Source of the DNA: Chloroflexota bacterium
Lineage (GTDB): Bacteria; Chloroflexota; Anaerolineae; Anaerolineales; UBA11579
Length of the DNA: 40,674 nt
Direction: 5' to 3'
Assembly: GCA_023485685.1 (NCBI GenBank)
Contig: JAMCZK010000031.1
Span: 1 to 40,674, forward strand
Positions 1,063 to 21,831 of this stretch are shown here, in pieces. The notes beneath the pieces are model-generated. The model had not been told where the DNA came from. It saw only the letters and a list, made by a program, of their open reading frames with translations, and made no database searches. Position numbers and translations under genes: made by a program. Each line of letters opens with the position of its first letter. Position 1 is the stretch's first letter.

Positions 1063-2445
1063 TCAGGCTTTGTCCGCTTTTTGTTCCATGGGATTGGGTG
1101 CAGGCTCCTCTGCCCGCACCACTTCCAAAGACTCGGCCGAGTGGTTCTCTGTTTTTACTTCCTCGGTAGATCCCGGAGCGGCTTGCGGAACGTCTTCTGC
1201 GGAGGCCGTCGCTTCGGCGGTTGGAACCGGTGCGGCCTCGCCGGCTTCCGCCAGGGCGGCTTCGTAATCCAAATCGCTGTATTGCGCCGAATCGACTTTG
1301 CGCAGCGACAGGCCGATGCGGCGGCGGTCTGGCTCGATCTTGATGACGCGTAGCGCCAGCTTGTCGCCTTCCTTCACCACTTCCTTGGGATGTTCGATGC
1401 GGTCTTCGCTCAATTCGGAGATGTGGATCAGGCCTTCGACGTGATCATCGATGCGGGCAAAGGCGCCGAACTTCACCAGGCGGGTGATGGTGCCTTCAAC
1501 CAATTGGCCCACATGGTAGTCCTCGACGTTGTCTTCCCAGGGATCTTTTTGTAACTGGCGCATGGAGAGCCCGATGCGTTTGCGCTCCGTGTCGATGCTA
1601 ATCACTTTCACTTCGACCTCATCGCCAACGGACAGCATCTTGTTGGGATGATCGATCCGTTCCCAGGAAAGCTCGGAGAGGTGCACGAGGCCATCGGCGC
1701 CATTGATGTTCACGAAGGCGCCGAAATCCGCCAGGCTGGTTACGCGGCCCTTACGCACTTCGCCGATATGAATCTCGGTGAGCAGACGCTCTTTGAGCGC
1801 CTCGCGGGATTCTTGGGCGGCGGCGCGCTCGGAGAGGATGAGACGGCGGCGTTCACGGTCTACCTCAATGACGCGGGCTACCAGGGTCTCCCCGGACATT
1901 TCACTCCAGCGCTGCTCGGGCGTATCGCCTTTGTAGCGCATGCGGCGGGTTTGGCTGACTTGCGAAGCGGGAACGAAGCCGCGCAGACGGCCTACAGTGA
2001 CAATCAGGCCGCCTTTGTTGAAGCCCTCTACTTTGCCCTGATAAGCTTCCTTCGACTTGAGCAACGCTTCAGCCTGGCTCCAATCGTCATCTTCCATCGA
2101 GCGGGTATACGAGAGCTGCATGATGCCTTTGTTCCCCTCGGGGCTGACAATGTAAACCTGGATCTCCTGGCCGACCTTGAGATTGGCGCGTTCCTCGGGA
2201 CTCATGGCCTCCAGTTCGCGCGCGGGAATCACTCCTTCGGATTTTGCCCCGATGCTGACCATCACTTCGTCTTCCGAGATGCTGGCAATCATGCCCGTGC
2301 GCAGGTCTCCGGGCTTGGGCATATCCAGGTTTAGGTCTCCCTGATTAAGCAACTGCTCCATAGTCAGGCCGGGCGCTGGCTTGGCAGCCTCAATAGGTTT
2401 CGCAGCAGCCTGCTCCCCCGCCTGGGGGACTTCGTTTTGCTCCAT
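1063..2445 (-). CDS. rpsA: 30S ribosomal protein S1, four S1 domains
   Basis: RNA-binding protein that helps load mRNA on the 30S subunit. The 460 residues hold four S1/OB-fold domains: about 45-115, 130-200, 228-297 and 315-383. The last two are the most typical, with FGAFV or FGAFA, then GL(V/I)HISELS-type sequence and R(K/R)RIGLS(L/M)R ends. Residues from about 390 onward form an acidic, Ala/Glu/Pro-rich, probably disordered tail. E. coli S1 has six domains; the four-domain form is common in Gram-positive and Chloroflexi-type bacteria. It starts with ATG, with GGGAG 11 bases upstream. The gene has a clear TATAAT on the minus strand (2480-2485) and is divergent from the chelatase gene. Confidence 0.93.
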   Translation of the reverse strand: MEQNEVPQAGEQAAAKPIEAAKPAPGLTMEQLLNQGDLNLDMPKPGDLRTGMIASISEDEVMVSIGAKSEGVIPARELEAMSPEERANLKVGQEIQVYIVSPEGNKGIMQLSYTRSMEDDDWSQAEALLKSKEAYQGKVEGFNKGGLIVTVGRLRGFVPASQVSQTRRMRYKGDTPEQRWSEMSGETLVARVIEVDRERRRLILSERAAAQESREALKERLLTEIHIGEVRKGRVTSLADFGAFVNINGADGLVHLSELSWERIDHPNKMLSVGDEVEVKVISIDTERKRIGLSMRQLQKDPWEDNVEDYHVGQLVEGTITRLVKFGAFARIDDHVEGLIHISELSEDRIEHPKEVVKEGDKLALRVIKIEPDRRRIGLSLRKVDSAQYSDLDYEAALAEAGEAAPVPTAEATASAEDVPQAAPGSTEEVKTENHSAESLEVVRAEEPAPNPMEQKADKA

Positions 2446-2588: not shown

Positions 2589-3704
2589 ATGATGAACCTC
2601 CGTAGCATTTACCCTTTCACTGCCATCGTTGGCCAGGAACGAATGAAACGCGCCCTGATCCTCAATGCCGTCGACCAGCGTATTGGGGGCGTGCTTATTC
2701 GCGGCGAGCGTGGTACGGCTAAATCCACCGCGGCGCGCGCCATGGCCGCCCTGCTACCCGAGATTGAGGTATTCGCCGAATCACCCTTCAACGACGATCC
2801 GCGCGCGCCGGAATCCTGGTCCGACTGGGCGAAAGAGCGCAAGGCCAGGGGCGAAGAATTAAATGTGGTGAAGCGTAAGACTGGATTTATTGACCTGCCT
2901 GTGAGCGCCACCGAAGATCGGGTGGTGGGCACCCTGGATATCGAACGCGCAATCAAACAGGGGGAGAAGCATTTCGAACCCGGCGTGCTGGCGGCCGCTA
3001 ACCGCGGATTGCTGTATATCGACGAAGTGAACCTGCTGGATGACCATGTGGTCGACCTGCTCCTAGATTCGGCTGCTATGGGTGTAAATATTGTCGAGCG
3101 GGAGGGTATTTCCTTCACTCATCCGGCGCGCTTCATCTTAGTTGGCACGATGAATCCCGAAGAAGGCGACCTGCGCCCGCAATTACTCGACCGATTTGCA
3201 TTGGCGGTAGACATTTACGGTATCCGCGATGCCCGCCAGCGGGTGCAGATCATGGAGCGCAACTTGAGATTCGAGGGGGATCCGGAAGCCTTTTATCGGG
3301 AATGGGAACCCAAGGAGCAGGAGTTGGCAAACAAGATCATAGCGGCCCGCGAGGTGGTGGATGATGTCGAATATACCTCGCGCGATTTGATTTCGATTGC
3401 TGCCCTGACTTCGTCACTGCAAGTGGACGGCCACCGCGGCGACCTGGTGATCCTCAAAACCGCCCGGGCTCAGGCCGCCTTCGACGCTCGCAAGGCCATC
3501 AGCGATCTCGACATTGCCATCGCCGCTGAATTGGCATTGCCTCACCGCATCAAGCGCGGCCCCTTCCACCAGACTGAGATCACGGTAACGGAGTTGCAGG
3601 AACGCATCGCCGAGATGCAACAACAAGCGGCAGCCCAGGGTGAATCCGAAGTGGAAGCCGAAGAAGAGTCAGAAGAGAAAGAACCTGTAAAAAAAAAGGC
3701 TTAG
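2589..3704 (+). CDS. Magnesium/cobalt chelatase ATPase subunit (BchI/ChlI-like), 0-frame product of a frameshifted chlD-type gene
   Basis: AAA+ ATPase part of a metal chelatase that inserts Mg or Co into a tetrapyrrole. Walker A is GERGTAKST (residues 39-47). Walker B is LLYIDEVNLL, sensor 1 is VGTMNPEEGDLRPQ and the arginine region is LLDRFAL, all as in BchI/ChlI. The C-terminus (about 350-371) is strongly acidic and ends VKKKA then TAG. I chose ATG 2589 (or 2592, MNLRSIYPF) because this matches the family start; an upstream TTG at 2508 would add unrelated sequence. The stop comes two codons after A AAA AAG, where the reading frame for the von Willebrand half begins. The acidic end is the usual ChlD linker, so this is the front half of a ChlD protein and may also serve alone as the small subunit. 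No bacteriochlorophyll genes are near, so a cobaltochelatase role is as likely as a magnesium one. Confidence 0.88.
   Translation: MMNLRSIYPFTAIVGQERMKRALILNAVDQRIGGVLIRGERGTAKSTAARAMAALLPEIEVFAESPFNDDPRAPESWSDWAKERKARGEELNVVKRKTGFIDLPVSATEDRVVGTLDIERAIKQGEKHFEPGVLAAANRGLLYIDEVNLLDDHVVDLLLDSAAMGVNIVEREGISFTHPARFILVGTMNPEEGDLRPQLLDRFALAVDIYGIRDARQRVQIMERNLRFEGDPEAFYREWEPKEQELANKIIAAREVVDDVEYTSRDLISIAALTSSLQVDGHRGDLVILKTARAQAAFDARKAISDLDIAIAAELALPHRIKRGPFHQTEITVTELQERIAEMQQQAAAQGESEVEAEEESEEKEPVKKKA
3690..3698 (+). promoter_or_regulatory. Candidate programmed -1 ribosomal frameshift site
   Basis: In the ATPase frame the codons read GTA AAA AAA AAG GCT TAG, so it contains the classical heptamer A AAA AAG (3692-3698), the same as the dnaX site. 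A purine-rich AGAAGAGAAAG lies about 10 bases upstream (3671-3681) and could act as an internal Shine-Dalgarno. Only weak hairpins are visible downstream (GGCTT/AAGCC 3698-3718; CAGC-GAA-GCTG 3718-3728). A sequencing error in the 9-A run is the main alternative. Confidence 0.7.
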
Positions 3705-4657
3705 ACCAGCAACAAGCCAGCGAAGCTGAACCGAAGAACCGCACTCCCGAGCCGGGTCCACAGGAAGTTTTCGACAGCGGCAACGCCCATTGGTGGGAGG
3801 GCGGACAGAAGGTTCGACCCAGCGAAACATTCACCCCGCGCAAGATCGACAATCCCCTGGACAAGATCACCCGCCGCCAAAGCGGAAGACGTTCGCGCAC
3901 TCACACGGAGCGCAAGCGCGGCCGTTACATCCAGGCGCGGCCGGCTGGCGAGGACAAGAGCGATATCGCCTTCGACGCCACCTTCCGCGCCGCGGCCCCC
4001 TACCAGAAGAAGCGTAGTAAGCAGCGCGAGAAAGTAGCTTTTGCCATCCAGCCGCAAGATTTACAGCGCAAAGTTCGTGTAAAGCGGACGGCCAACCTGG
4101 TGTTGTTCGTGGTCGACGCGTCCTGGTCTATGGCGGTGGCGGAGCGCATGTCGGCAACTAAGGGCGCTATTTTGTCTTTGCTCACCGATGCGTACCAGCG
4201 CCGCGACCGCGTAGGGTTGATCGTTTTTCAGAAGGACCGTGCGAATTTAATTCTGCCGCCGACCAACTCAGTTCAATTGGCGCAGCGCGCTTTGGTGGAT
4301 ATCCCGGTGGGCGGCAAGACGCCGCTCTCGGCGGGATTATTCCTCGCGCATGATGTCGTTGTGCGTGAAAAGCGACTGCATCCCGATGTGATGCCGCTAT
4401 TGATCTTCCTCACGGACGGAGCTGGGAACGTGGCCATGGGTGAAGCCTCACCGCAGAAGGAGGCACATGACTTGGCGGACCAGATCGCAGAAGACGAGAT
4501 TCGCTGCGTGGTGATCAACATGGAGCACGCCGCTTTCGACCAGGGACTGGCCAACTCGCTGGCCGAACATTTGAAATCGCCTTGTTATACGCTCAGCCAA
4601 TTGCGTGCTCAGAATTTGTATGAGGCGGTGCGAACCGAGATGGCGAAGGCGCAGTAA
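3698..4657 (+). CDS. Chelatase subunit D, C-terminal linker and von Willebrand factor A domain (-1 frame continuation)
   Basis: Reading in the -1 frame from the slippery site is open from 3692 to the TAA at 4655-4657. It gives a proline/basic linker (about 3700-4080) and a VWA domain (about 4100-4650). The metal-binding MIDAS motif is intact (DASWS), followed by LIVFQKDRANLILPPT and a conserved TDGAGN. No plausible start codon lies at the head of this frame: the first ATG is 4130, inside the MIDAS motif, and would lose its Asp. Joined to the upstream ATPase by a -1 shift, the protein is about 689 residues, the size and domain order of ChlD/BchD (AAA+, acidic/Pro linker, VWA). The VWA domain is thought to bridge the ATPase ring to the large catalytic subunit, which is not in this window. 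Confidence 0.82.
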   Translation, partial: GLDQQQASEAEPKNRTPEPGPQEVFDSGNAHWWEGGQKVRPSETFTPRKIDNPLDKITRRQSGRRSRTHTERKRGRYIQARPAGEDKSDIAFDATFRAAAPYQKKRSKQREKVAFAIQPQDLQRKVRVKRTANLVLFVVDASWSMAVAERMSATKGAILSLLTDAYQRRDRVGLIVFQKDRANLILPPTNSVQLAQRALVDIPVGGKTPLSAGLFLAHDVVVREKRLHPDVMPLLIFLTDGAGNVAMGEASPQKEAHDLADQIAEDEIRCVVINMEHAAFDQGLANSLAEHLKSPCYTLSQLRAQNLYEAVRTEMAKAQ

Positions 4658-8785: not shown

Positions 8786-10105
8786 ATGACCGATATTCGA
8801 TCCTCATTGGTGGGTAAACTGCGCGACCGCAGTGCAAAAATGGCAGTGCTTGGCCTCGGCTACGTGGGCCTCCCTTTTGCCACTGTGTTCGCCGAGGCCG
8901 GCTTCGAAGTTGTCGGGGTAGACCCGGATCCTAGAAAAGTGCACGCGATCAATGCAGGGAAATCCTATATCGGCGATGTGGAGAACGAACAAGTCGCCCG
9001 ACTGGTAAAAGCCAGGAAATTGCGCGCCACAACGGATTTTTCGGAGTTGGCCAATGTGGATGCGGTGAGCATTTGTGTGCCTACGCCATTGCGCAAGACG
9101 GGCGACCCGGATCTCTCCTTTATTGTTTCGGCTGCAGAGAAGTTGGCGGACCACATGCACCCGGGCATGGTTATCGTACTGGAATCTACAACTTATCCCG
9201 GAACGACGCGCGAACTGATGCTGGACATGCTGGCAGGAAAAAGCGGCATGAAAGTGGGCGAGGATTTCTTTTTGGCGTTTTCGCCGGAGCGAGTGGACCC
9301 TGGCCGTACGGATTGGACCACCTCCAACATGCCCAAGGTAGTCGGTGGAGTCACCAAGGTTTGCGGAGAAGTTGCTTCGCTGTGGTATTCGCAGGCGTTA
9401 AAGACAGTAGTGCCGGTGAGTTCAGCGGAAGTGGCCGAGATGGCCAAGCTGCTGGAGAATACCTTCCGCATGGTGAACATCGGCCTGGTGAATGAGATGG
9501 CGCTGATGTGCAATCGCCTGGGTGTCGATGTATGGGAGGTGATCGATGCCGCGGCCACCAAACCTTTCGGATTCATGAAATTTACACCGGGCCCCGGCCT
9601 GGGTGGGCACTGCATCCCAATCGACCCCCTGTACCTATCCTGGAAGTTAAAAGAACTCAACTATACGGCGCGCTTTATTGAACTGGCTTCGGAAATCAAT
9701 ACCAGCATGCCCCGCTATGTCGTTGGCCGGGTGCAGGACGCCCTCAACGAGCACAGTAAATCGCTCAATGGCAGCAAGGTATTGGTGCTGGGGACCGCCT
9801 ACAAGCCGGACATCGATGACCTGCGCGAATCGCCTGCGTTAGACGTGATCGCCTTGCTGCGCGAGAAAAAAGCGGAGGTCGTGTATCACGACCCCTACAT
9901 CCCACATATGGACCATGAGGATTGGGCGCTGGATAGTGTGCCCGACTATATGAAGGCAGCCAGGGAAGCCGATGTGGTAGTGATTGTGACCAACCATAAG
10001 GTTTACGACTACCCGGGGCTGCTGAAGCAAAGCAAACTTATCGTCGATACACGTAACGCCTACGGGCAGCTTGCCAAGGGCGATCCCAAAGTGGTTGGAC
10101 TTTAG
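8786..10105 (+). CDS. UDP-N-acetyl-sugar / UDP-glucose 6-dehydrogenase family protein (WbpA/WecC/TviB-like)
   Basis: Four-electron oxidation of a UDP-hexose (probably an N-acetylated sugar) to the uronic acid, for polysaccharide synthesis in the cytoplasm. It has 439 residues. Rossmann motif GLGYVGLP is at 23-30 and PTPLRKTGDPDLS near 100. The Lys region is LLENTFRMVNIGLVNE, and the catalytic Cys lies in GLGGHCIPIDPLYL (about 265-280). C-terminal UDP-binding sequence includes GTAYKPDIDDLRESPA. The GHCIPIDPLYLSWK form resembles the WbpA branch more than plain UDP-glucose dehydrogenase, but the substrate is inferred. Shine-Dalgarno GAGGTGA precedes the ATG, 7 bases after the glycosylase stop. 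Its stop overlaps the next start (TAGTG). Confidence 0.88.
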   Translation: MTDIRSSLVGKLRDRSAKMAVLGLGYVGLPFATVFAEAGFEVVGVDPDPRKVHAINAGKSYIGDVENEQVARLVKARKLRATTDFSELANVDAVSICVPTPLRKTGDPDLSFIVSAAEKLADHMHPGMVIVLESTTYPGTTRELMLDMLAGKSGMKVGEDFFLAFSPERVDPGRTDWTTSNMPKVVGGVTKVCGEVASLWYSQALKTVVPVSSAEVAEMAKLLENTFRMVNIGLVNEMALMCNRLGVDVWEVIDAAATKPFGFMKFTPGPGLGGHCIPIDPLYLSWKLKELNYTARFIELASEINTSMPRYVVGRVQDALNEHSKSLNGSKVLVLGTAYKPDIDDLRESPALDVIALLREKKAEVVYHDPYIPHMDHEDWALDSVPDYMKAAREADVVVIVTNHKVYDYPGLLKQSKLIVDTRNAYGQLAKGDPKVVGL

Positions 10106-11073
10106 TGCCCCGCTATCTGGTTACAGGCGTAGCGGGCTTCATCGGCGCCCGGGTGGCAGGACTGCTGCTTGACGCGGGACACGCCGTGGTAGGTCTAGAC
10201 AATATGAACACGTCCTACGACGTGCGCATGAAGGAATATCGCCTCAAAGGCTTGCAGGGGCGAGGCGGGTTTGAATTTCATCGCCTGGATATTTCTGATC
10301 GCGAGGTTATCAACCAACTGGATGGTAAGCTCAATGCAGTGATCAACCTGGCAGCGCGCGCGGGGGTGCGTGATAGCGTAGAGGACCCCTGGGCTTATCT
10401 CGAGTCGAATATTACAGGCACATTGAATTTGCTGGAGCTGTGTCGTCGTCAGGGAATCTCGAAATTCGTGCTGGCGTCCACGTCTAGCATCTATGGTGCC
10501 GATGCGCCGCTGCCCACCGCGGAAACCGCCGACAGCAGCCTCCCGCTGCAGCCGTACGCTGCCAGTAAGAAGGGCGCTGAGGCCATGTGTCATGCCTACC
10601 ATTTCCTCTACGGTATTGACGTGACCATTGTGCGTTACTTCACTGTATATGGGCCCGCGGGACGGCCCAATATGTCCATGTTCCGGTTCGTACAAAGCAT
10701 CAGTGAGGGCAGCCTCATTCAATTACTGGGCGATGGCAATCAGACTCGCGGTTTCACTTATATTGATGATATTGCCCGCGGCACGATCTTGGCGTTGAAG
10801 CCGGTGGGCTTCGAGATCATAAACCTTGGTGGTCATGAATCGATCTCAATAAATGATTTGATCGCCATGCTTGAGAAATCCATCGGACGCAAAGCAATTG
10901 TTGAGCAGCAGCCTGCCGAAAAGGCAGATATGATGGCCAGTTGGGCGGATGTGAGCAAAGCCGGCAAACTGTTGGGCTGGGAACCGCAAGTGGGATTGAA
11001 AGAAGGCGTCGCCAGGATGGTGGATTGGTATATGTCGGAACGATCCTGGGCATCCAAGATTAAGCCCGATTGA
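10105..11073 (+). CDS. NAD-dependent nucleotide-sugar epimerase/dehydratase (extended SDR, UDP-uronate 4-epimerase-like)
   Basis: Extended short-chain dehydrogenase of 322 residues with a GTG start that overlaps the previous stop by one base. NAD-binding GVAGFIG lies at 8-14 and the acidic NAD-ribose residue is in GLDNMN. ARAGVRDSVEDP and the active-site pair STSSIYG and YAASKKGAE (YxxxK, about 149-153) follow, then RYFTVYGPAGRPNM and FTYIDDIA. This is the pattern of UDP-glucuronate/UDP-GlcNAcA 4-epimerases. Placement right after the dehydrogenase suggests it epimerises that enzyme's product. GalE-type activity on a neutral sugar cannot be excluded. Confidence 0.85.
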   Translation: MPRYLVTGVAGFIGARVAGLLLDAGHAVVGLDNMNTSYDVRMKEYRLKGLQGRGGFEFHRLDISDREVINQLDGKLNAVINLAARAGVRDSVEDPWAYLESNITGTLNLLELCRRQGISKFVLASTSSIYGADAPLPTAETADSSLPLQPYAASKKGAEAMCHAYHFLYGIDVTIVRYFTVYGPAGRPNMSMFRFVQSISEGSLIQLLGDGNQTRGFTYIDDIARGTILALKPVGFEIINLGGHESISINDLIAMLEKSIGRKAIVEQQPAEKADMMASWADVSKAGKLLGWEPQVGLKEGVARMVDWYMSERSWASKIKPD

Positions 11074-11084
11074 ATTCTCCTCAC

Positions 11085-11090
11085 TAGAAT
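11085..11090 (+). promoter_or_regulatory. Internal -10 box before the flippase gene
   Basis: TAGAAT ends 8 bases before ATG 11099, in the 25-base gap after the epimerase. No Shine-Dalgarno is present, so a leaderless internal transcript is likely. Inference from position. Confidence 0.45.
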
Positions 11091-11098
11091 GCCCTTGA

Positions 11099-12454
11099 AT
11101 GTTTAGACTCCCGCTCGAACGTCTGGAACAACTTTACCTACGCGTCTTCGATACTGAATTACTACGTCGCATCCTGCGCAATTCAAGCTACCTGGTTAGC
11201 GCCACGGTGCTCTCCGCGGGGATGGGCATGGTGCAAGGCGCCATTCAGGTGCGGGTGGTCGGTGTAGCCAGTGTCGGCTTATTGGCCGCCTTAGTCACTT
11301 TCACCAACGTGCTCAACCGTTTCACCTCTTTCCGCATTGACGAACTAGTCGTTCGCTACGTACGTCTATATGAAGAGCGCAAACAGCATGAACGGGCTGC
11401 TGCCGTATACAAGATTGCGGCATTGCTGGAATTGGGCGGCAATGCGCTGGCTTTTCTATTGATCCTTTTGCTGGCACCACTTGGTGTGGAACTTTTTTCA
11501 GATCAAGGCGGGGTTGAGTACCTTTTTATTCTTTATGGTTCTTTGGTGCTGATCAACGTATTCTTCGATAGTTCCGATGGGATTCTGCAAGTCTTCAATC
11601 GCTTTGGCGCCAAGTCCGTTATCGATATCACGCAGAGTGTGATCCGGCTTGGCTTGACGGTCTTGGTCTGGCTGACTGGCGGCGGGATGACTGAAATTAT
11701 TTTGGCGGAATTGGCTGGGCGTTTGGTACGCTCGGCTGCGGTTTTGGCCGTAGCGCTTTCTACTGCGCGGAAACAATGGGGTGCTGGCTGGTGGCGCACA
11801 CCCTTTAGCGTCCTCAAGGAGGATCGACGTAGCTTGCTCACCTTCGCCTTCAGTACCAATCTCAGTGCCACCGTAAGCCTGGTGGCCAAGGACAGCGAAG
11901 ATCTGTGGGCTAATGCATTCCTCGGCAACCTGGTGGGTGGCTACTACGCCGTCGCGCGGGCGCTGATCGGATTCTTGCAGATCCCGGTCAGCCCATTGCC
12001 TTCGACCACGTATCCGGAGCTTTCACGCGCGGTAGCGAAAGACGATTGGAAGTCGGTGCGACATGTATTGCGTCGCGGTTCTATGCTAGCCGCGCTGTAT
12101 TCCCTGCCAGTGGCGGCTTTCTTGATCTTGTTCGGCCCGCAAGTGATCACCCTGTACACAAAACAAGACCTGCCGGAGGTGTACGCGCCGTTATTGGTAT
12201 TGTTGATGGGTTATTCGGTCGTTAATATCTTTTATTGGAGTCGTGCGGCTTTATTGGCGTTCAACCGCCCGGTGTTTCCAACTATCGTCAACACCATTGG
12301 CATGGTATTAAAAGTCGTTGGGATATTTATTTTCGCGCCCTTGGGGGCTGTGGCTTTTGCAGCACTGCTTGCGGGTTACTATGTGTTCACTGTGGGCATA
12401 GCAGTGATCCGCATCCTCCAAGATGTGCGCGCTCACTTGGCTTCCTCGGCTTAG
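11099..12454 (+). CDS. Polysaccharide flippase, Wzx/MATE-like superfamily
   Basis: Integral membrane protein of 451 residues with about 12 hydrophobic segments. It is expected to flip undecaprenyl-linked sugar units across the membrane. It opens with RNSSYLVSATVLSAGMGMVQGA, typical of polysaccharide-biosynthesis exporters, and has the usual repeated pairs of helices separated by short charged loops (for example ARKQWGAGWW near 223). A conserved stretch around 255-290 (NLSATVSLVAKDSEDLW) resembles the lipid-linked-oligosaccharide flippases of this superfamily. The context is sugar-nucleotide enzymes upstream and glycosyltransferases downstream. Substrate unknown. Confidence 0.82.
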   Translation: MFRLPLERLEQLYLRVFDTELLRRILRNSSYLVSATVLSAGMGMVQGAIQVRVVGVASVGLLAALVTFTNVLNRFTSFRIDELVVRYVRLYEERKQHERAAAVYKIAALLELGGNALAFLLILLLAPLGVELFSDQGGVEYLFILYGSLVLINVFFDSSDGILQVFNRFGAKSVIDITQSVIRLGLTVLVWLTGGGMTEIILAELAGRLVRSAAVLAVALSTARKQWGAGWWRTPFSVLKEDRRSLLTFAFSTNLSATVSLVAKDSEDLWANAFLGNLVGGYYAVARALIGFLQIPVSPLPSTTYPELSRAVAKDDWKSVRHVLRRGSMLAALYSLPVAAFLILFGPQVITLYTKQDLPEVYAPLLVLLMGYSVVNIFYWSRAALLAFNRPVFPTIVNTIGMVLKVVGIFIFAPLGAVAFAALLAGYYVFTVGIAVIRILQDVRAHLASSA

Positions 12455-12457
12455 CTA

Positions 12458-14598
<2,141 letters not shown>

Positions 14599-14628
14599 CG
14601 CGAAGAAAATCTCTGATACCGGAGATCA

Positions 14629-16722
14629 ATGTATTGGTATCGTGACGGCAACCCTCTGAGCTTGCTGCCCTGGCTGGTGGTCATGCTGGTCGCTTGGTTG
14701 GCGGGTTGGCTGCTGGCAACGCATGCCTTCCGCCTTCAAGCACGTGAACGCCTCATCGCCGGTCTTGGCCTGGGTTTGGTGCTTTACGTTTGGCTGGCGA
14801 ACCTAATAGGTCATTGGCTTTCACCCGATCTCACATTTTTACTTCCTGCGCTCATCTTGCTGATTGTTGGCGTCCTGTTTGGTTGGCGTCGCAAAGAAGG
14901 CCTCTGGCTGGACCGCGAGGATTTAAGAGTTTGGCCCTGGCTGTTGGCTGGCTTGGGGCTCGTGTGGCTATTCCTGCTTTGGAGCAAAGGTCTCACGCTC
15001 TTCGATGAGCACAAGAACCTGTCGCTAATTTCCATTATTGGTAATGGGGATATTCCTCCGCGATTCTTTCCCAATTATCCGCTCAACTTTATTTACCACT
15101 ATGGTTTCCATTTCATTGGCGCCAGTTTGATGCGCCTCGGTGGCATGCTCCCGTGGAGCGCATTCGACGTATCGAAGGCGCTCCTGTGGGGTGAAATGCT
15201 GCTGCTGGCTGTTTTATTGGGCAAACGTTACATCGGCCAGCGCTGGGGCGGCTGGGCTGCGGCGGCTGTGGTTGCATTGGCAAGCGGTACACGCTATTTG
15301 TTGTTGTTGTTACCTCCCGCATTTTTGTTACAAGCCGACAAGGTTGTTCGGCTACAGGGTACCAGTGCGCTGATCGGCAAGCCGTTTTCTGAGGCGCTGA
15401 TCTCGCCCTGGCCCGTGGATGGCGGGCCGCCCATGCCGTATATGTTCGGCTTCCTCAACGGCATCATGGATCCCATGGTGATGGCGCACCAGGGGCCGAA
15501 TATTTTCTCAGTGCTCATCTTGCTGCTGGTCTGGTTACTATTGCCGCGCCTGGCCAGCCGCTGGTCAATACTCTTGGTGGCGGCTGCATTCGCCACCTGG
15601 GCTTTGGCTTGGGAAACGACTTACGCGCTCTTTATTTCTGGACTGATTGTGTTTACCATCATTTATTTCTGGCAGAAACGTAATTTGAGATTGCCGGATT
15701 TCAATTCCGTATTGGCCGCTGCGGCTCTTTCGATTCCTGTTGCGCTGCTGCAGGGTGGCACGCTGACTGAGCTGGTCCGTGATTTCTTGTTCGGCATCGA
15801 GGGTCCCGGGTTGTTGCAATCTTTCGGTTTCAGCAATCTGCTCTCATCATTAGGGACTAGCTTAGCTCATTTCGGTTTCGCCGTCAGTATTCCATCCGCT
15901 CCGACGAGTAGTGTTCTGGGATTTTCGTTTCGCTGGCCACCTGCCATCCTGTCCTCCCATTTGGGTGCTTTGAGTCTTTTCTCCCCGGTTCAACTGGTCG
16001 TTGGTTTGTTCGAACTTGGTCCGGTCATTCTATTCACGCCCTGGATTACGCGCTGGGCTTGGCGCCGCGCCAATGCCGGCGACTGGGTGCTGGGAGTTTT
16101 GGCCACCACCGCTTGGCTCGGCCTGTTTATCCCTATGTTCCTTCAATACGAAGCCGACCGGGATATTTCGCGACTGAGTTGGCAGGCTCTGCTCACCTGG
16201 ACGATCTTATTGGCTTTTGTGGTGACCGACCAAGCTTTCCCATGGCGCCCGTGGATTCGGCAAGCCGCCATGGGCAGCTTGGCCATCATGGTCTTCGGGG
16301 GCCTGGTAATTGCCGGCACACAGTTTTCGGCGGCCAGTACTACGCGGTTGGGTGATGGCTACAACGAGTTGGACGCCGCTATCGCCGCGCAAATCTGGGG
16401 GCGGATTCCTGCGGATGCGATAGTCTTTGGCCCCATGGGCAGCACCACAGTCCTGACCGGCCACCTGAGTGGGCAATTGCTCAGTGAGCCGCCTCCCAGC
16501 GATATATGGCACTCTTTAATGGCCACTCCTTCATTAGAGCGATTACTGGCCGGGGGATACGACTTCGCCTATATCGACAGCCGCGTTTGGGATGATCTGG
16601 CTCCCGAAATCCAGGCTGCTTCTGGATTGGACACCGACTGCGTTGTGACTTTTGCCGAAGTTTGGGATAATTCGCACGTTAATTTCCGCCGTATGCTAGA
16701 CTTGCGGCCCTGCAAACCTTAG
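14629..16722 (+). CDS. Large multi-spanning membrane protein, unrecognised (possible GT-C-type glycosyltransferase or polymerase)
   Basis: 697 residues with about 13 to 15 hydrophobic segments, from residue 12 to about 595, then a soluble C-terminal part of roughly 100 residues. I do not recognise the family. Suggestive features are an acidic/aromatic first large loop (TLFDEHKNLSLISIIGNGDI, followed by HYGFHF), an NGIMDPMVMAHQG loop, and a C-terminal domain with VFGPMGST and ALIW-type sites. The acidic first loop and extracytoplasmic tail resemble GT-C glycosyltransferases, and its place among polysaccharide genes fits either such an enzyme or a Wzy-like polymerase. Shine-Dalgarno GGAG lies 5 bases upstream. 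A second giant membrane protein occurs at 18697. Confidence 0.7.
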   Translation: MYWYRDGNPLSLLPWLVVMLVAWLAGWLLATHAFRLQARERLIAGLGLGLVLYVWLANLIGHWLSPDLTFLLPALILLIVGVLFGWRRKEGLWLDREDLRVWPWLLAGLGLVWLFLLWSKGLTLFDEHKNLSLISIIGNGDIPPRFFPNYPLNFIYHYGFHFIGASLMRLGGMLPWSAFDVSKALLWGEMLLLAVLLGKRYIGQRWGGWAAAAVVALASGTRYLLLLLPPAFLLQADKVVRLQGTSALIGKPFSEALISPWPVDGGPPMPYMFGFLNGIMDPMVMAHQGPNIFSVLILLLVWLLLPRLASRWSILLVAAAFATWALAWETTYALFISGLIVFTIIYFWQKRNLRLPDFNSVLAAAALSIPVALLQGGTLTELVRDFLFGIEGPGLLQSFGFSNLLSSLGTSLAHFGFAVSIPSAPTSSVLGFSFRWPPAILSSHLGALSLFSPVQLVVGLFELGPVILFTPWITRWAWRRANAGDWVLGVLATTAWLGLFIPMFLQYEADRDISRLSWQALLTWTILLAFVVTDQAFPWRPWIRQAAMGSLAIMVFGGLVIAGTQFSAASTTRLGDGYNELDAAIAAQIWGRIPADAIVFGPMGSTTVLTGHLSGQLLSEPPPSDIWHSLMATPSLERLLAGGYDFAYIDSRVWDDLAPEIQAASGLDTDCVVTFAEVWDNSHVNFRRMLDLRPCKP

Positions 16723-16726
16723 GCCC

Positions 16727-17740
16727 ATGGCGCTCAAACAAATCAAACGACGTATCACTCGGCCGCCCAAAACCAGCATGACGGTTTCTGTGGTCGTGCC
16801 GGTATTTAATGAAGTGCAAAGTGTCCCGGAACTGCATCGGCGAATCTCGAAAGCTCTTGCAGGGAGCCACCAGGTTTGGGAGATTGTTTTCGTAGACGAT
16901 GGCAGCAATGACGGCAGCCTGCAAGCCATGGAAATGCTGGCTGCGAAAGACCCCTTCCACACCCGTGTAGTGGCTCTGCGCCGTAACTTCGGGCAGACGG
17001 CGGCCATCTCGGCAGGCATCGACCATTCCACTGGCGAAATCATTGTGCTCATGGATGGCGATCTGCAAAATGACCCCGCGGATATTCCCAAGTTGCTCGC
17101 AGAAATCGCCAACGGCTACGATCTGGTGAGCGGCTGGCGCAAATTCCGTAAGGACAATTTCATTACGCGCACCTTTCCATCTATGGTGGCGAATTGGGTT
17201 ATTTCCCGAGTGACCGGAGTATCCTTACACGATTATGGCTGCACCCTCAAAGCTTACCGTCGAGAAGTGCTGACTGGCTTCCGCTTGTATGGAGAAATGC
17301 ATCGTTTTATCCCGGCCTACGCGGGTTATGTGGGTGCCAGGATTACCGAAGTGCCGGTGCAGCATCATCCTCGAGAGCACGGCAAAAGTAATTATGGTTT
17401 GAACCGCGCCATCAAGGTGGTTTTGGATTTGTTCACAGTTAAATTCCTTAGCGGTTATGTGAACAAGCCCATTTATTTATTCGGAGGCGTGGGTGTCGGT
17501 TTCGGTTTTGCCGGCGTGATGGGTTTGGTTTTTCTCTTCGTGCGGCGCACGCTTTACGGAACCTCTACCGTTGATTCGCCAATATTTCTTTTAAGCGCCC
17601 TGCTATTTGTCTTGGGAGTACAGTCCATTTTATTGGGGTTGCTGGCCGAGATGTCGGTACGCACCTACCATGAATCGCAGTCAAAGCCTATTTACACGGT
17701 GAGGTATGTGATCCGGAGAGCGAATGGCAAGGGCCACTAA
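16727..17740 (+). CDS. Glycosyltransferase family 2, DPM1/ArnC/GtrB-like, with C-terminal membrane helices
   Basis: Transfers a sugar from a nucleotide donor to a polyprenyl phosphate at the inner membrane. It has 337 residues. The GT-A domain has VVVPVFNEVQSVPEL (about 25-39), VDDGSNDGS, RNFGQTAAISAGI and the metal-binding MDGDLQNDP (DxD, about 108). SGWRKFRKDN and TLKAYRREV follow. Two transmembrane segments lie at about 245-275 and 285-315. This layout matches polyprenyl-phosphate sugar synthases. It starts 4 bases after the previous stop and overlaps the next gene by 17 bases. It could supply lipid-linked sugar to the neighbouring multi-spanning proteins. Confidence 0.88.
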   Translation: MALKQIKRRITRPPKTSMTVSVVVPVFNEVQSVPELHRRISKALAGSHQVWEIVFVDDGSNDGSLQAMEMLAAKDPFHTRVVALRRNFGQTAAISAGIDHSTGEIIVLMDGDLQNDPADIPKLLAEIANGYDLVSGWRKFRKDNFITRTFPSMVANWVISRVTGVSLHDYGCTLKAYRREVLTGFRLYGEMHRFIPAYAGYVGARITEVPVQHHPREHGKSNYGLNRAIKVVLDLFTVKFLSGYVNKPIYLFGGVGVGFGFAGVMGLVFLFVRRTLYGTSTVDSPIFLLSALLFVLGVQSILLGLLAEMSVRTYHESQSKPIYTVRYVIRRANGKGH

Positions 17741-18686
17741 TTCCCGGTCGAGTTACTCCACACCCGGGGGGCTTTTGCGCGTCTTGGGGACCCTGGTCGC
17801 ATTGGGGCTGGTGATCTATCTCGTCGCCCAGCAGGGTTGGCAGGATATTGCAGATGCGGTGGCGCGGATCGAGCTCTGGCGCTTTGCCCTCGCAATTGCC
17901 CTCACGGTAATCTCGCGCGTCGCCGTCGGCCGCCGCTGGTATGTGCTGCTGCGCTCGGGTGGCGTAAACGCTTCCTGGCCACAAAGCCTGCGCATCACAT
18001 TCGCGGGCTTGTTTGCCAATAACTTCTTGCCCACTACGGTGGGCGGTGACCTGGCCCGCATGGCGGGAGCGCTGCAGGTGGGCTTCGATGCTACTGTGTC
18101 GGCCGCCTCACTGGTTGCAGATCGCCTGATAGGTTTGCTGGGCTTCGCCTTCACGTTGCCAATAGGCCTGCAAATCCTGGCGAAGGCGAATTTGCAAGCC
18201 GGGATGGCTCTTCCGCTGATGATGTTGGCGGCGCAAACCAATTGGATGGCACGCATGACGAACCGCGTGCGCAAGATTTGGGAAAGATTATCGAGGGCGA
18301 TTCGGCTTTGGATAAGCCAGCCGCGCGCGTTGATGACCGCCCTCTTCTTTACATTCGTTCATATGGCCTGCTTGTTTGCTACCCTCTATATTCTGTTGGA
18401 GGGCATGAACGACCCGATGCCATTTTGGTCGGTGGCTGGGTTGCAGAGTTTGGTCTATATCGTCACATTGATCCCCATTAGCATCAGCGGCTGGGGCGTG
18501 CAGGAATTCTCCAGCAGTTTTGCTTTCTCGGCGCTGGGCGGGGTGGATCCGGCCAACAGCCTGGTGCTGGCCCTGCTGATCCGCACGTTATACGTGCTGG
18601 TGAGCTTGCCGGGAGCGTTGGTGCTCTCCGATGTGCTGCCTGGGATGGCAAAAGCGCAACCGTTATTATCGAAACTGGATGGGTAG
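17724..18686 (+). CDS. Lysylphosphatidylglycerol-synthase-TM-like membrane protein (UPF0104 family)
   Basis: Multi-spanning protein of 320 residues with about 7 or 8 helices and the family motif ANNFLPTTVGGDLARM (about 91-106). It also has AGLQSLVYIVTLIPISISGWGVQE near 233-256, a region usual in this flippase-like domain. The catalytic domain of true lysyl-PG synthases is absent. Such stand-alone proteins commonly sit in polysaccharide or lipid clusters and are presumed transporters or accessory proteins. The start overlaps the glycosyltransferase upstream by 17 bases. Confidence 0.8.
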   Translation: MARATNSRSSYSTPGGLLRVLGTLVALGLVIYLVAQQGWQDIADAVARIELWRFALAIALTVISRVAVGRRWYVLLRSGGVNASWPQSLRITFAGLFANNFLPTTVGGDLARMAGALQVGFDATVSAASLVADRLIGLLGFAFTLPIGLQILAKANLQAGMALPLMMLAAQTNWMARMTNRVRKIWERLSRAIRLWISQPRALMTALFFTFVHMACLFATLYILLEGMNDPMPFWSVAGLQSLVYIVTLIPISISGWGVQEFSSSFAFSALGGVDPANSLVLALLIRTLYVLVSLPGALVLSDVLPGMAKAQPLLSKLDG

Positions 18687-18696
18687 ACTCTCGAGA

Positions 18697-20694
18697 ATGC
18701 CCGTCCCCATTCAATTCCCAAAGCCCAGTCTAATTACTTTCTTGCGCCTTGGATTGCTCACCGGCGCACTGCTGGGTGCGGCGGCCGTTTGGCAGTTCCA
18801 GGCGCAGATCACCGCCGAAGGCCTGATCGTCACCTCGATCAACTTCCGCGCCGGGCTTTACGTAAGCTATGTATTTGTGGGTGCGCTCGCTTTGCTGGCA
18901 GTGTCAGCATGGACGCCTTTTGCATCCCGTCTGCTGCGATGGCTCGCCGCCATCCAGAAAAAATTGCGGGCGCTAGGCGTGCTCGCACTGGTGTTATTTT
19001 TGCTCCTATTGGTCGCGTTCCCTTTCATTGCGCTTGGGTTTTACGGACGATTTTTGCTCAACCCATTTCCGAGACTTTTTATATTTTTAATCTTTAGTGC
19101 CGTGGGTGCCTCCCTCCTTGCAGCCTGGCGAAAATCAGATTGGCTTGCCAACTTGTCGGCTTCAATATTGACTTTTGCGTCTATCTATCTGGCGGCAACA
19201 TTTTTGAATCAAGTTACGGATTACCCTTTTTCGCTGGAATGGTCCGAGGTTAGTCGCTATTACCAGGCTTCGTTTTATTTCAGCCGGCGGGTGTACGGTG
19301 TAAGTCTGCCGCTTCCTGTCACCCATCCCAGCCGCTACCTGTTGCAATCCATCCCATTTCTTATCCCGGGTTCTTCGCTGTTGATCCATCGGCTCTGGCA
19401 AGCGCTTCTCTGGGTTGGCCTGCCCATGCTCACGGCATGGATCCTTGCCGGGCGCCTACGCCTGCAGTCGCTTTGGTTCCGCGGGCTATTTATCCTCTGG
19501 GTATTCCTATTCTTGATGCTGGGTGCCGTCTTCTATCATTTGCTCCCCGGCGTTTTTCTAGTCTTGCTCGGCTTCGATAAAGAACGCCCCTGGCGCTCAT
19601 TGCTATTTGTTGCTCTGGCTTCGGCCTGGGCCGGCATCAGCCGCATCAACTGGGCGCCGTTGCCAGGCGCGTTGGCAGCACTGCTTTATCTGCTTGAGGT
19701 CCGCCCAAAGAAAAACAGCTCGGTGTTTTCTCTAGGCTATTTGTGGCAGCCAGCGCTCTACACCATAGGTGGCGGGATTGTCGCCCTGGGAACGTATGCG
19801 CTCTACATCGCCAATTCCGGAGTGGCCGATAAAAGCCAGTTCGGTTCCTCTTTTACATCCGAATTGCTTTGGGATCGCTTATGGCCTAATGACACCTTTT
19901 TTCTGGGCATTTTGCCTGGCATCCTGTTGGTCTCCGCCCCAATATTTGTCCTTTTCTGGCTTCGTTTTCGGCAGAAGGGAATGGGTATAGGACTTTGGCG
20001 CGGCATTGGCATCGCCGCACTGCTGGTGATTTTCTTTCTTGGCGGTTTGGTGGTGAGCGTCAAGATCGGCGGCGGCACCAATCTCCACAATCTGGATGCG
20101 TATATGGTGTTGCTGCTTGTATTGGGAGTTGTCTTTGCTTTTGGCGCTTATGCTCCGGCGGCGACCCGATCGGTTTCCATCTTCAAGATCCCGCCTGCGT
20201 TGCTGACTGCATTGCTGCTGATGCCTGTGCTTTTCGCCGTGCTCAGTGGCGAACCTCTCGAGTTGCCGTCCAAGCAGATTTCCGCTGACATCCTCGCACA
20301 AATTCAAACCATGGCGGACCAAGCTACGGCTCAAGGCGGCGAGGTGCTATTCATCTCGCAGAGACATCTGGTTACTTTCCACCTGATCAAGAATGTGCCC
20401 TTGGTGCCCGAATATGAAAAATTATTTCTAATGGAAATGGCCATCTCGCACAATGACGCGTATTTGACTCGTTTTGCCCAGGATATCGACCGGCAGCGTT
20501 TCGCCCTTATCATCACCGATCCGCTCTTCAACAACATAACAGATACCAGCGAAGACACGCTCGCCCCGGAGAACAATGCCTGGGTGCGCAGTGTGGGTCG
20601 CCCGATCCTGTGCGCCTATGAACCCGCAGCCACATTTTCCAACCCGGCTATCCAATTGCTCACCCCTCGCTACGGCAACAAGTGCAACCAATAG
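18697..20694 (+). CDS. Large multi-spanning membrane protein, unrecognised
   Basis: About 665 residues from ATG 18697 (MPVPIQFPKPSL). In-frame ATGs at 18679 and 18631 would overlap the previous gene; I favour 18697 because the first helix follows soon after it. There are about 13 hydrophobic segments, ending near residue 525. The soluble tail of about 140 residues includes VLFISQRHLVTFHLI and ends with CAYEPAATF. An acidic loop SLEWSEVSRYYQA, after helix 5 or so, resembles the catalytic loop of GT-C enzymes, but that is a guess. It is similar in architecture to the protein at 14629 (many helices plus a soluble tail). I do not assign a function. Confidence 0.68.
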   Translation: MPVPIQFPKPSLITFLRLGLLTGALLGAAAVWQFQAQITAEGLIVTSINFRAGLYVSYVFVGALALLAVSAWTPFASRLLRWLAAIQKKLRALGVLALVLFLLLLVAFPFIALGFYGRFLLNPFPRLFIFLIFSAVGASLLAAWRKSDWLANLSASILTFASIYLAATFLNQVTDYPFSLEWSEVSRYYQASFYFSRRVYGVSLPLPVTHPSRYLLQSIPFLIPGSSLLIHRLWQALLWVGLPMLTAWILAGRLRLQSLWFRGLFILWVFLFLMLGAVFYHLLPGVFLVLLGFDKERPWRSLLFVALASAWAGISRINWAPLPGALAALLYLLEVRPKKNSSVFSLGYLWQPALYTIGGGIVALGTYALYIANSGVADKSQFGSSFTSELLWDRLWPNDTFFLGILPGILLVSAPIFVLFWLRFRQKGMGIGLWRGIGIAALLVIFFLGGLVVSVKIGGGTNLHNLDAYMVLLLVLGVVFAFGAYAPAATRSVSIFKIPPALLTALLLMPVLFAVLSGEPLELPSKQISADILAQIQTMADQATAQGGEVLFISQRHLVTFHLIKNVPLVPEYEKLFLMEMAISHNDAYLTRFAQDIDRQRFALIITDPLFNNITDTSEDTLAPENNAWVRSVGRPILCAYEPAATFSNPAIQLLTPRYGNKCNQ

Positions 20695-20697
20695 CTC

Positions 20698-21831
20698 ATG
20701 CACATCCTCATCATCAATAGTGAATATCCTCCCATTGGGGGTGGTGCAAGCAATGCCAGCGCAGAAATCGCCAGGAGCCTGGTGAAACTTGGGCAACAGG
20801 TCACCGTGTTGACTGCCGCTTATCACAATCTTCCTAGCGGCGAAGAAATCGATGACGTACGTATAGTGCGTATGCCTGCTTGGCGCCGCAAATCCGACCG
20901 TTCCACTACCGCCGAACAGATCTCGTTCATGCTGTCCGCTTCATTTCTGGGTTTGTGGCAGATCCGTCGCCTGCGCCCAGATGTAGCGCTTGCGTTTTTT
21001 GGTGCGCCCAGCGGCGTGGCCGCCTGGTTCTGGAGCTTTTTCTTTGGGCTGCCCTACGTCGTTAGTTTGCGCGGGGGCGATGTCCCCGGCTTCCGTCCCT
21101 ATGATTTTGCCCGCCAGCATCGGCTGCTCGGTCCGTTGCTGCGTAGAGTCTGGCGGCGAGCCGCGGCGGTGGTGGCGAATAGCGAAGGACTGCGGCAGCT
21201 TGGAGGAGTCTTCGAGCCGCGCGTGCCTATTCGAGTAATTCCCAACGGAGTCGACCTGGATAAATTCCAGGCTGGCGACCGAGTTTGGGCACCGGCCCGG
21301 TTGCTCTTCGTCGGGCGAGTTGTCTACCAAAAAGGTCTCGACCTCATTCTGAACGCACTATCGGCATTGAAGACGTTGGATTGGCGGCTGGAGATTGTCG
21401 GCGATGGCCCACGCGTCGATCGACTGCGAGCGCAGGCCGACGAACTCGGAATCGTTGAGCGGGTAAGCTTTCCTGGCTGGCAGAGTCGCGAGATTTTGCC
21501 TTCCGCCTATCGGCGGGCGAATTTATTTGTTTACCCTTCTCGGCACGAAGGTATGCCGAATGCTGTGCTCGAAGCCATGGCCAGCGGCCTGCCTGTTTTG
21601 GCCTCGCGCATTGCAGGCAACGAAGAACTGGTGACCGAAGAAGCAGGCTTGCTGGTGCCCCCGGAAGATGTGCAGGCGCTGAAATCCGCGCTGGTGCAAT
21701 TGATACCCGACGCAAGCGCGCGTGAGCGCATGGGCGCTGCGGCTCGCAAGCGCGTGGAAGCTCAATACAGTTGGCGCAAAGTCGCCCAGGCGTATTTGGA
21801 TTTGATGAACTCGATCGTGGAGTCTCGCTAA
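20698..21831 (+). CDS. Glycosyltransferase family 4 (GT-B fold)
   Basis: 377 residues. The N-terminal PPIGGGASNASAEIARSL loop is typical of GT4 enzymes. ANSEGLRQLGG and VIPNGVDLDKF mark the domain junction, then LFVGRVVYQKGLDLIL. The donor-site motif is YPSRHEGMPNAVLEAMASGL (about 279-298), with both acidic residues of the E-x7-E pattern. It starts 3 bases after the previous stop, and its stop touches the asnB start (TAAATG). Likely adds a sugar to the lipid-linked unit; specificity unknown. Confidence 0.9.
   Translation: MHILIINSEYPPIGGGASNASAEIARSLVKLGQQVTVLTAAYHNLPSGEEIDDVRIVRMPAWRRKSDRSTTAEQISFMLSASFLGLWQIRRLRPDVALAFFGAPSGVAAWFWSFFFGLPYVVSLRGGDVPGFRPYDFARQHRLLGPLLRRVWRRAAAVVANSEGLRQLGGVFEPRVPIRVIPNGVDLDKFQAGDRVWAPARLLFVGRVVYQKGLDLILNALSALKTLDWRLEIVGDGPRVDRLRAQADELGIVERVSFPGWQSREILPSAYRRANLFVYPSRHEGMPNAVLEAMASGLPVLASRIAGNEELVTEEAGLLVPPEDVQALKSALVQLIPDASARERMGAAARKRVEAQYSWRKVAQAYLDLMNSIVESR

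Follow-up and report, generated by a model that had tools for sequence, protein, structure and literature searches.

Does a gene that breaks off at a run of nine A's and continues in another frame encode one protein or two, and is it the chelatase gene that its name implies? The question is raised by a chlD-type gene at 2589–4657 of contig JAMCZK010000031.1 (assembly GCA_023485685.1), whose full 40,674 nucleotides (nt) are called the window here, from a Chloroflexota bacterium of the Anaerolineales (UBA11579). The ATPase frame, on the forward strand, runs from an ATG at 2589 to 3704 and encodes, by its Pfam and NCBIfam matches, a ChlI/BchI-type AAA+ product of 371 residues. Near its end lies a tract of nine A's (A9, 3689–3697), which the in-phase heptamer A AAA AAG (3692–3698) overlaps; one sense codon (GCT) then precedes the TAG stop at 3702–3704, the zero-frame reading of the junction being GTA AAA AAA AAG GCT TAG. 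The +1 frame also closes early, at a TGA 29 nt past the run (3727–3729). The -1 frame, on the same strand, is open from 3698 to a TAA at 4655–4657 and carries an acidic linker and a VWA domain (Pfam VWA_2) with the residues D-A-S-W-S at 4115–4129, read from the translation, which we take to be the MIDAS motif. In the window, no ATG, GTG or TTG occurs in this frame from its upstream stop to the conserved VWA part; the first start-type codon is a GTG at 4100, already inside the VWA domain. An earlier note, made from the letters of this DNA, had described just such an ATPase frame ending right after the heptamer and a MIDAS-bearing VWA frame without a usable start, with products of 371 and about 689 residues. 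The layout stands, and so do the sizes, since the long product read through the -1 route amounts to 370 + 319 = 689 residues.

By their model matches, the two frames together rebuild one TIGR02442 protein. Along the 641 positions of that family the ATPase piece covers 1–355 and the -1 piece 357–640, in the same order; taken singly, they score 483.8 and 268 bits, each under the 779-bit cut-off. Pfam places AAA_lid_2 and Mg_chelatase on the ATPase part, NCBIfam TIGR02030 matches the ATPase frame with 418.6 bits (cut-off 466.95), and the structural relatives are ChlI (8osf) and BchI (1g8p) for the ATPase part and the BchD VWA domain (2x31) for the VWA part.

The explanation that we favour, as the earlier note did, is that one gene very probably makes two proteins, a short ATPase and a long ATPase-VWA protein, by slippage at the conserved A-run that joins the two frames. 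Without a slip, reading would stop at 3702 and give the 371-residue, I-like AAA+ ATPase; a one-base slip, by the transcript or by the ribosome, would lead into the -1 frame and give the 689-residue, D-like ATPase-linker-VWA protein. With the ATPase common to both, the two products could assemble into a mixed ring or into a two-tier AAA+/VWA machine, in proportions that the run would set, the short and long proteins joining as chelatase I and D do. We infer the production of both proteins, their ratio and their complex from the sequence comparisons that follow.

Conservation of the junction was assessed in 61 genomes of the genus, family and order, including the source genome itself (1.71 Mb, 76% complete, with the window as its contig C17; its nearest named relatives are Anaerolineales and Anaerolineae metagenome-assembled genomes). 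Loci, genomes and families are cited below by our own L, G and f numbers. The gene was present at 65% identity or more in 53 of the 61 (hand count), and all 52 junctions compared, the window's included, are of the -1 type with a run of seven to ten A's (A7–A10) and an in-phase A_AAA_AAN heptamer, which ends in AAG in 26 cases, AAA in 20 and AAC in 6. This set excludes G043, which has the gene but was not fetched, L057, and L058–L062, which are 49–55% identical and have no run at the junction. Both the heptamer and the frame change to which the earlier note had pointed are thus kept throughout these junctions. In a wider, non-random set of 196 distinct junctions with a run, 158 have the -1 arrangement, and 68 of 77 readable loci in named public records, whose source genomes partly overlap the other samples, show the -1 arrangement with the run. 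Compared with five close relatives, the -1 frame is 75–80% identical in amino acids, with substitutions mostly at the third codon position (60/22/144 by codon position against L006), and both the ATPase and the VWA parts have the codon-position pattern of coding sequence. By this measure the -1 frame evolves as coding sequence and both frames are under purifying selection. Because all 52 order-level junctions are -1 with A7–A10, we regard the frame change at A9 as confirmed and real, not as an assembly error. Among the main-clade -1 junctions only that of L185 (G084, family f39) lacks a run; since both of its sister loci are continuous, its frame change could stem from mutation or from an error of assembly.

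The window gene is a well-supported further example of a published kind, for which the earlier note had rightly mentioned a precedent from comparative genomics (PMC3711429, PMC9227772). Frameshifted chlD genes (fs-chlD; Antonov et al. 2013, PMC3711429; Atkins et al. 2016, PMC5009743) share with it the I-type ATPase frame, an A_AAA_AAR heptamer or longer run, and the VWA domain in the -1 frame, and the kind has already been reported in Anaerolineaceae lacking B12 or chlorophyll pathways (PMC9227772, PMC3711429). Kuznetsov et al. 2022 (PMC9227772) describe genes of this very kind from the bacterial group to which the window belongs, the 'Stage 1' fs-chlD of Brevefilum fermentans and the fs-chlD of Anaerolineaceae, with Anaerolinea thermophila UNI-1 named as one carrier; stage-1 species are said to lack the large subunit, and the function is given as unknown. 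The window gene differs from the fs-chlD of PMC3711429 in that it lies in a clade for which no CobN or ChlH was detected in the order and in that its A9 has no detectable downstream structure.

Many relatives in the class encode the two parts in one continuous frame, and these bear on what the run does. A cut-off of 59.5% identity in the ATPase part defined the main clade, with 124 rows kept and 19 below it, one of which (L202) is A9 and -1. Rows that were duplicates or not this gene (L001–L005, L063, L064, L117, L118) were dropped, as were L057, which has no VWA part, and further rows of the phylum-level (L241, L245, L246, L250) and named-record (L294, L322, L331) sets. The 124 rows comprise 86 -1 genes (85 with at least A7), 36 continuous genes and 2 +1 genes (both A10), proportions that are not population estimates, many continuous genes having been chosen deliberately; a hand count from open frames gave 39 continuous genes among 126 genomes with a best match at least 59% identical. 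At least A7 is present in 27 of the 36 continuous genes, A6 in 2, and no run in 7 (L151, L158, L160 (f23), L162, L204 (f39), L177 (f32), L179 (f63)). A -1 stop lies within 29 nt in all 27 continuous genes with at least A7, compared with 21% of control codons within 30 nt, and the same holds for 35 of 35 continuous run-bearing junctions once the phylum-level and named loci are included and duplicate junctions are collapsed. In family f75, outside the class, A9 is followed by a -1 stop exactly 3 nt past the run in 6 of 6 loci; ten other phylum-level loci (52–57% identity) have no run. At phylum level the run is found in families f75, f85, f111 and f114, and continuous members occur in f75 and f24.

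On a quick tree of 143 ATPase parts (no bootstrap), 13 changes of arrangement are needed among the run-bearing rows, and well-supported branches alone force 8 changes for the continuous run-bearing label. Families f16, f47 and f56 are mixed in arrangement, and genus g41 has one continuous gene, with A10, alongside two -1 genes with A9. Because many continuous relatives keep the run and a nearby -1 stop, the default product by sequence flips between short (-1 arrangement) and long (continuous) across relatives. PMC3711429 takes continuous genes (Chloroflexus aggregans) as fusions; many of the related continuous genes here keep the run and the -1 stop, and such run-bearing relatives, so far read as fusions, may make both products. 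No mention of such a polarity flip for chlD was found in the accessible fs-chlD literature, the 2020 chlD paper not covered, and we claim no priority. The +1 arrangement occurs with a run in L169 and L170 (family f56, A10 in each) and in L308 (A9), which would be either homopolymer miscalls or cases of polymerase slippage.

Several observations weigh against a gene that makes two products by slippage. The window has no downstream hairpin (z -0.6, +0.1 and -0.3 in three folding windows or runs) and no clear upstream Shine-Dalgarno peak above its purine-rich linker; throughout the linker the pairing energy exceeds that of controls (-2.1 to -3.0 against -1.4; window -0.9 to -3.3). The site is dispensable in some lineages, given the 7 of 36 continuous main-clade genes that have no run of at least six A's. 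G035 holds, beside its run-bearing gene, a stand-alone ATPase copy at 66% identity (L057/L114, G035:C23), with no VWA part within about 20 kb. Finally, with the source genome 76% complete, absences from it rest on its relatives. As to the hairpin, downstream structures are described as usual, not required, in fs-chlD (PMC9227772).

How the slip would occur may depend on run length, which over the 196 distinct run-bearing junctions is A7 in 26, A8 in 10, A9 in 133 and A10 in 27. All 26 A7 runs place A_AAA_AAA in frame, each then followed by G, and in 9 of 10 cases an A8 run likewise stops at a codon boundary, so that 35 of 36 A7–A8 genes are phase-locked. Mean z for downstream folding is -1.38 for A7, -0.37 for A8, -0.48 for A9 and -0.38 for A10, with values below -1.5 in 9/17, 1/5, 14/92 and 3/22 genes, respectively; overall such folding is weak, with a mean z of -0.71 for -1 genes and -0.79 for continuous genes (controls about -0.2). 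Because of the phase lock and the stronger downstream folding, the A7 genes are clearly to be read, on sequence grounds, as cases of ribosomal frameshifting with a stimulator. In L231–L233 (family f85) the A7 lies, by eye, between short complementary arms (GGGGC...AGCT AAAAAAA GCT...GCCCC) and may be a slip site in a hairpin loop; the 60 nt downstream alone show nothing unusual in folding.

At A9–A10, RNA polymerase may instead do the slipping, giving mRNAs with 8, 9, 10 or 11 A's that are then read normally, a possibility that falls only a little short of an even chance. A9 is the commonest length, and the -1 genes that carry it show no phase preference, the three phases being near equal (33/35/39). 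However, every A9 phase contains an in-phase heptamer, which leaves room for ribosomes, and in other sets the phase is constrained: 19 of the 20 -1 genes with A10 have a single phase in common, and so have 16 of 25 continuous A9 genes. A +1 stop lies within 30 nt in 143 of 157 A9–A10 genes (16 of 36 A7–A8 genes, 29% of control codons), both unwanted frames thus mostly closing early, as in Thermus dnaX (PMC5009743), but on independent tree pairs the association between run length and +1 stop is not significant (median p 0.5, with the 4 pairs on starred branches being too few). Downstream folding is weaker at A9 than at A7, in keeping with slippage by the polymerase, and the three run-bearing +1 genes could not be served by a -1 ribosomal shift, although they make up just 3 of 160 A9–A10 junctions. 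In a closed genome from the genus, tRNA-Lys with UUU and with CUU anticodons are both present (27 loci scanned), and two tRNA-Lys have been tied to polymerase slippage in Thermus (PMC5009743). The source genome showed only the UUU species among 25 tRNA matches, which would favour ribosomal slippage, but because the closed genome has both, the missing CUU species may reflect incompleteness. The in-phase A_AAA_AAG of the window and its A7 orthologues, which look clearly ribosomal, also speak for the ribosome. In E. coli, frameshifting at chelatase cassettes reached 63% with 11 A's, 40% with 9 and 10% with 7 (PMC3711429); as far as the accessible text shows, those reporters, at 40% with nine A's, did not separate ribosomal from polymerase mechanisms. 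For the A9 of the window, the balance between ribosomal and polymerase slippage seems to us roughly even.

A broader formulation, which we offer tentatively, is that the A-run and not the frame is the conserved unit: the long product would be encoded in frame -1 or 0 and, in a few members, in frame +1, with all members making both products. Nine A's would let the polymerase supply transcripts in all three frames, with stops closing the unused ones, and the A7 members, with their phase-locked heptamer and hairpin, would be ribosomal. This formulation is weakened because A10 and continuous A9 genes show a phase preference. If it is true, the family would form a natural series of switches, both of default product and of polymerase versus ribosome slippage, in the service of a CobN-independent AAA+/VWA machine.

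The dnaX gene of E. coli has an A AAA AAG heptamer with an upstream Shine-Dalgarno sequence and a downstream hairpin. In the window no hairpin was seen, nor any clear Shine-Dalgarno peak; a hairpin occurs in several A7 relatives. Like the window gene, E. coli dnaX gives a short and a long AAA+ product from one gene, but its long product is read in the zero frame whereas that of the window lies in the shifted frame; the continuous relatives have the dnaX polarity, and reversed polarity is known for dnaX itself (PMC5009743). The epithet 'dnaX-like' in the earlier note is therefore apt for the heptamer, and not for the polarity, the reverse of that in E. coli, or for a hairpin. With Thermus thermophilus dnaX the window gene shares nine A's, early stops in the other frames and, in the closed genus-mate genome, two tRNA-Lys; in Thermus the long product is in the zero frame and slippage has been demonstrated, whereas here it is in the -1 frame and slippage is proposed (PMC5009743, PMC1088944). 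As to conserved length, a trait of the Thermus type, the junctions are divided: A9–A10 is found in 133 + 27 of the 196 and A7–A8 in 36, A9 being usual and not universal.

It is improbable that the two products serve as subunits I and D of a functioning chelatase, for cobalt or for magnesium, as the gene name implies and the earlier note proposed. The strong matches to TIGR02442 ('putative cobaltochelatase') and TIGR02030 would suit such a role, and a frameshifted chlD with cobN but without chlI has been published (via PMC9227772). Yet PF02514 (CobN-Mg_chel), the family used to search for CobN and ChlH/BchH alike in the order (61 genomes) and class (150 genomes) samples, matched none of the 61 order-sample genomes, the source genome included, and was positive in 5 of 14 control genomes. 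CbiC, our single marker of the corrin pathway, was absent from the source genome and present in 3 of the 61; in the source genome (76% complete), neither the CobN and corrin marker expected for a cobaltochelatase nor the ChlH/BchH expected for a magnesium chelatase was detected. In the class sample, 14 genomes gave a PF02514 match, 13 of them above the cut-off. Of these 13 genomes, 10 have a second I/D gene of about 50–55% identity, and in 8 of them (8 of the 13) its distance from cobN is no more than 5 kb; none of the 11 paralogue loci examined in CobN genomes holds a run of at least six A's, the loci being continuous or split.

On the quick tree the paralogues of CobN genomes fall, with support 92, in an 18-row group apart from the other 125 rows, among which L058, run-less and long-branched, is placed. 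The association with CobN has its limits: CobN is absent from the genomes of 7 of the 18 rows, some CobN-bearing genomes hold run-bearing genes of the main clade as well (e.g. L130, L134, L174, L175), and the CobN search stops short of the phylum level. One member of the otherwise run-less group, L202 (G073:C4), whose genome lacks CobN, combines A9 with the -1 arrangement; its second frame could also start at a TTG that overlaps the ATPase stop. Because all 61 order genomes lack a detectable CobN or ChlH and a run-less paralogue stands near cobN in 8 of 13 genomes, the window gene is probably not the chelatase gene and the label 'chelatase' is doubtful. For the order, a chelatase is already largely refuted and would need a divergent large subunit that PF02514 missed. 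PMC9227772 reads stage-1 genes as the start of pathway evolution, whereas the run-less paralogue beside cobN points to the lineage of the window gene as a distinct one that would not need CobN.

A search of the source genome for a second full ChlI-type gene found none, in agreement with the earlier note, which had seen no separate bchI nearby; the absence of any cobN or chlH tells against the chelatase that it had in mind. The window protein gave one other match there (E 2.5e-4), at a locus matched by PF01078 with 320 bits, a family that also gives weak matches of 24.4 and 20.4 bits. In many genomes of the order and class, a second ATPase match of about 34–41% identity was observed (e.g. L113, G017:C15), with none listed for the window's genus; this ChlI-like gene may be the 'separate chlI' of PMC9227772.

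It is very improbable that the locus consists of two coupled genes with the VWA part started anew by reinitiation, since no ATG, GTG or TTG precedes the VWA domain in the window or in many run-bearing relatives, and retention of the run would need some other reason, even though run-less split relatives do have start codons near the ATPase stop (L059–L061, L190, L196–L198, L200, L201). Homopolymer error or a decaying pseudogene, which an error-prone run of nine A's and a gene name implying one continuous frame might suggest, can practically be dismissed, the same arrangement recurring in every order-level junction despite differing flanks and run lengths and in most named-record loci, with purifying selection on both frames.

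Within the source genome, ten matches to A9 or longer were listed and read as seven tracts; five of the other six are intergenic (by eye), and the sixth, a T9, falls within a gene. The A9 at the ATPase/VWA junction appears, on this count, to be more than chance. The T9 (L071, C15:40799-40807) lies in a glutamate-dehydrogenase-like gene, where a conserved-looking GYRVQHN follows it in another frame before the main frame resumes. No comparable junction was established in the dnaX gene of the source genome, which counts 514 codons from the start of the match to the stop; it holds one A7, 379 nt from the start of the match and far from the end of the frame.

The gene neighbourhood was compared in 39 stretches, 38 fetched and the window, one of them holding G035's second ATPase copy. 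The neighbour retained most often is a divergently transcribed gene for a protein with four S1 domains by domain match (1063–2445, reverse strand), a homologue of which, likewise divergent, lies upstream in 25 of the 39 stretches, the window included, and in 9 families. Other recurrent neighbours, named by eye, are a Clp-type ATPase (23 genomes, 8 families) and a RadA-like gene (16 genomes, 7 families). No recurring downstream metalloenzyme or partner gene was seen in the 39 stretches, and the context names no client. Farther along the window, at 8786–23730, translations judged by eye indicate a polysaccharide or cell-surface-like cluster with a nucleotide-sugar dehydrogenase, epimerases, a flippase-like protein, glycosyltransferases and an asparagine-synthase-like protein.

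Because no large subunit was found, a chaperone role seems likeliest, and we infer by analogy that the products would form a CobN-independent AAA+/VWA remodelling or metal-insertion chaperone, and not a cobalt or magnesium chelatase. What the present comparison adds to the published picture of fs-chlD is threefold: a separate paralogue without a run next to cobN, a default product that flips among relatives, and a division of the runs into two classes. Such genes are annotated as chelatases or as broken genes. They may instead represent a testable and widespread AAA+/VWA machine in a group known, in these collections, mostly from metagenome-assembled genomes, and would offer a natural series in which to study the choice between slippage by the ribosome and slippage by the polymerase.

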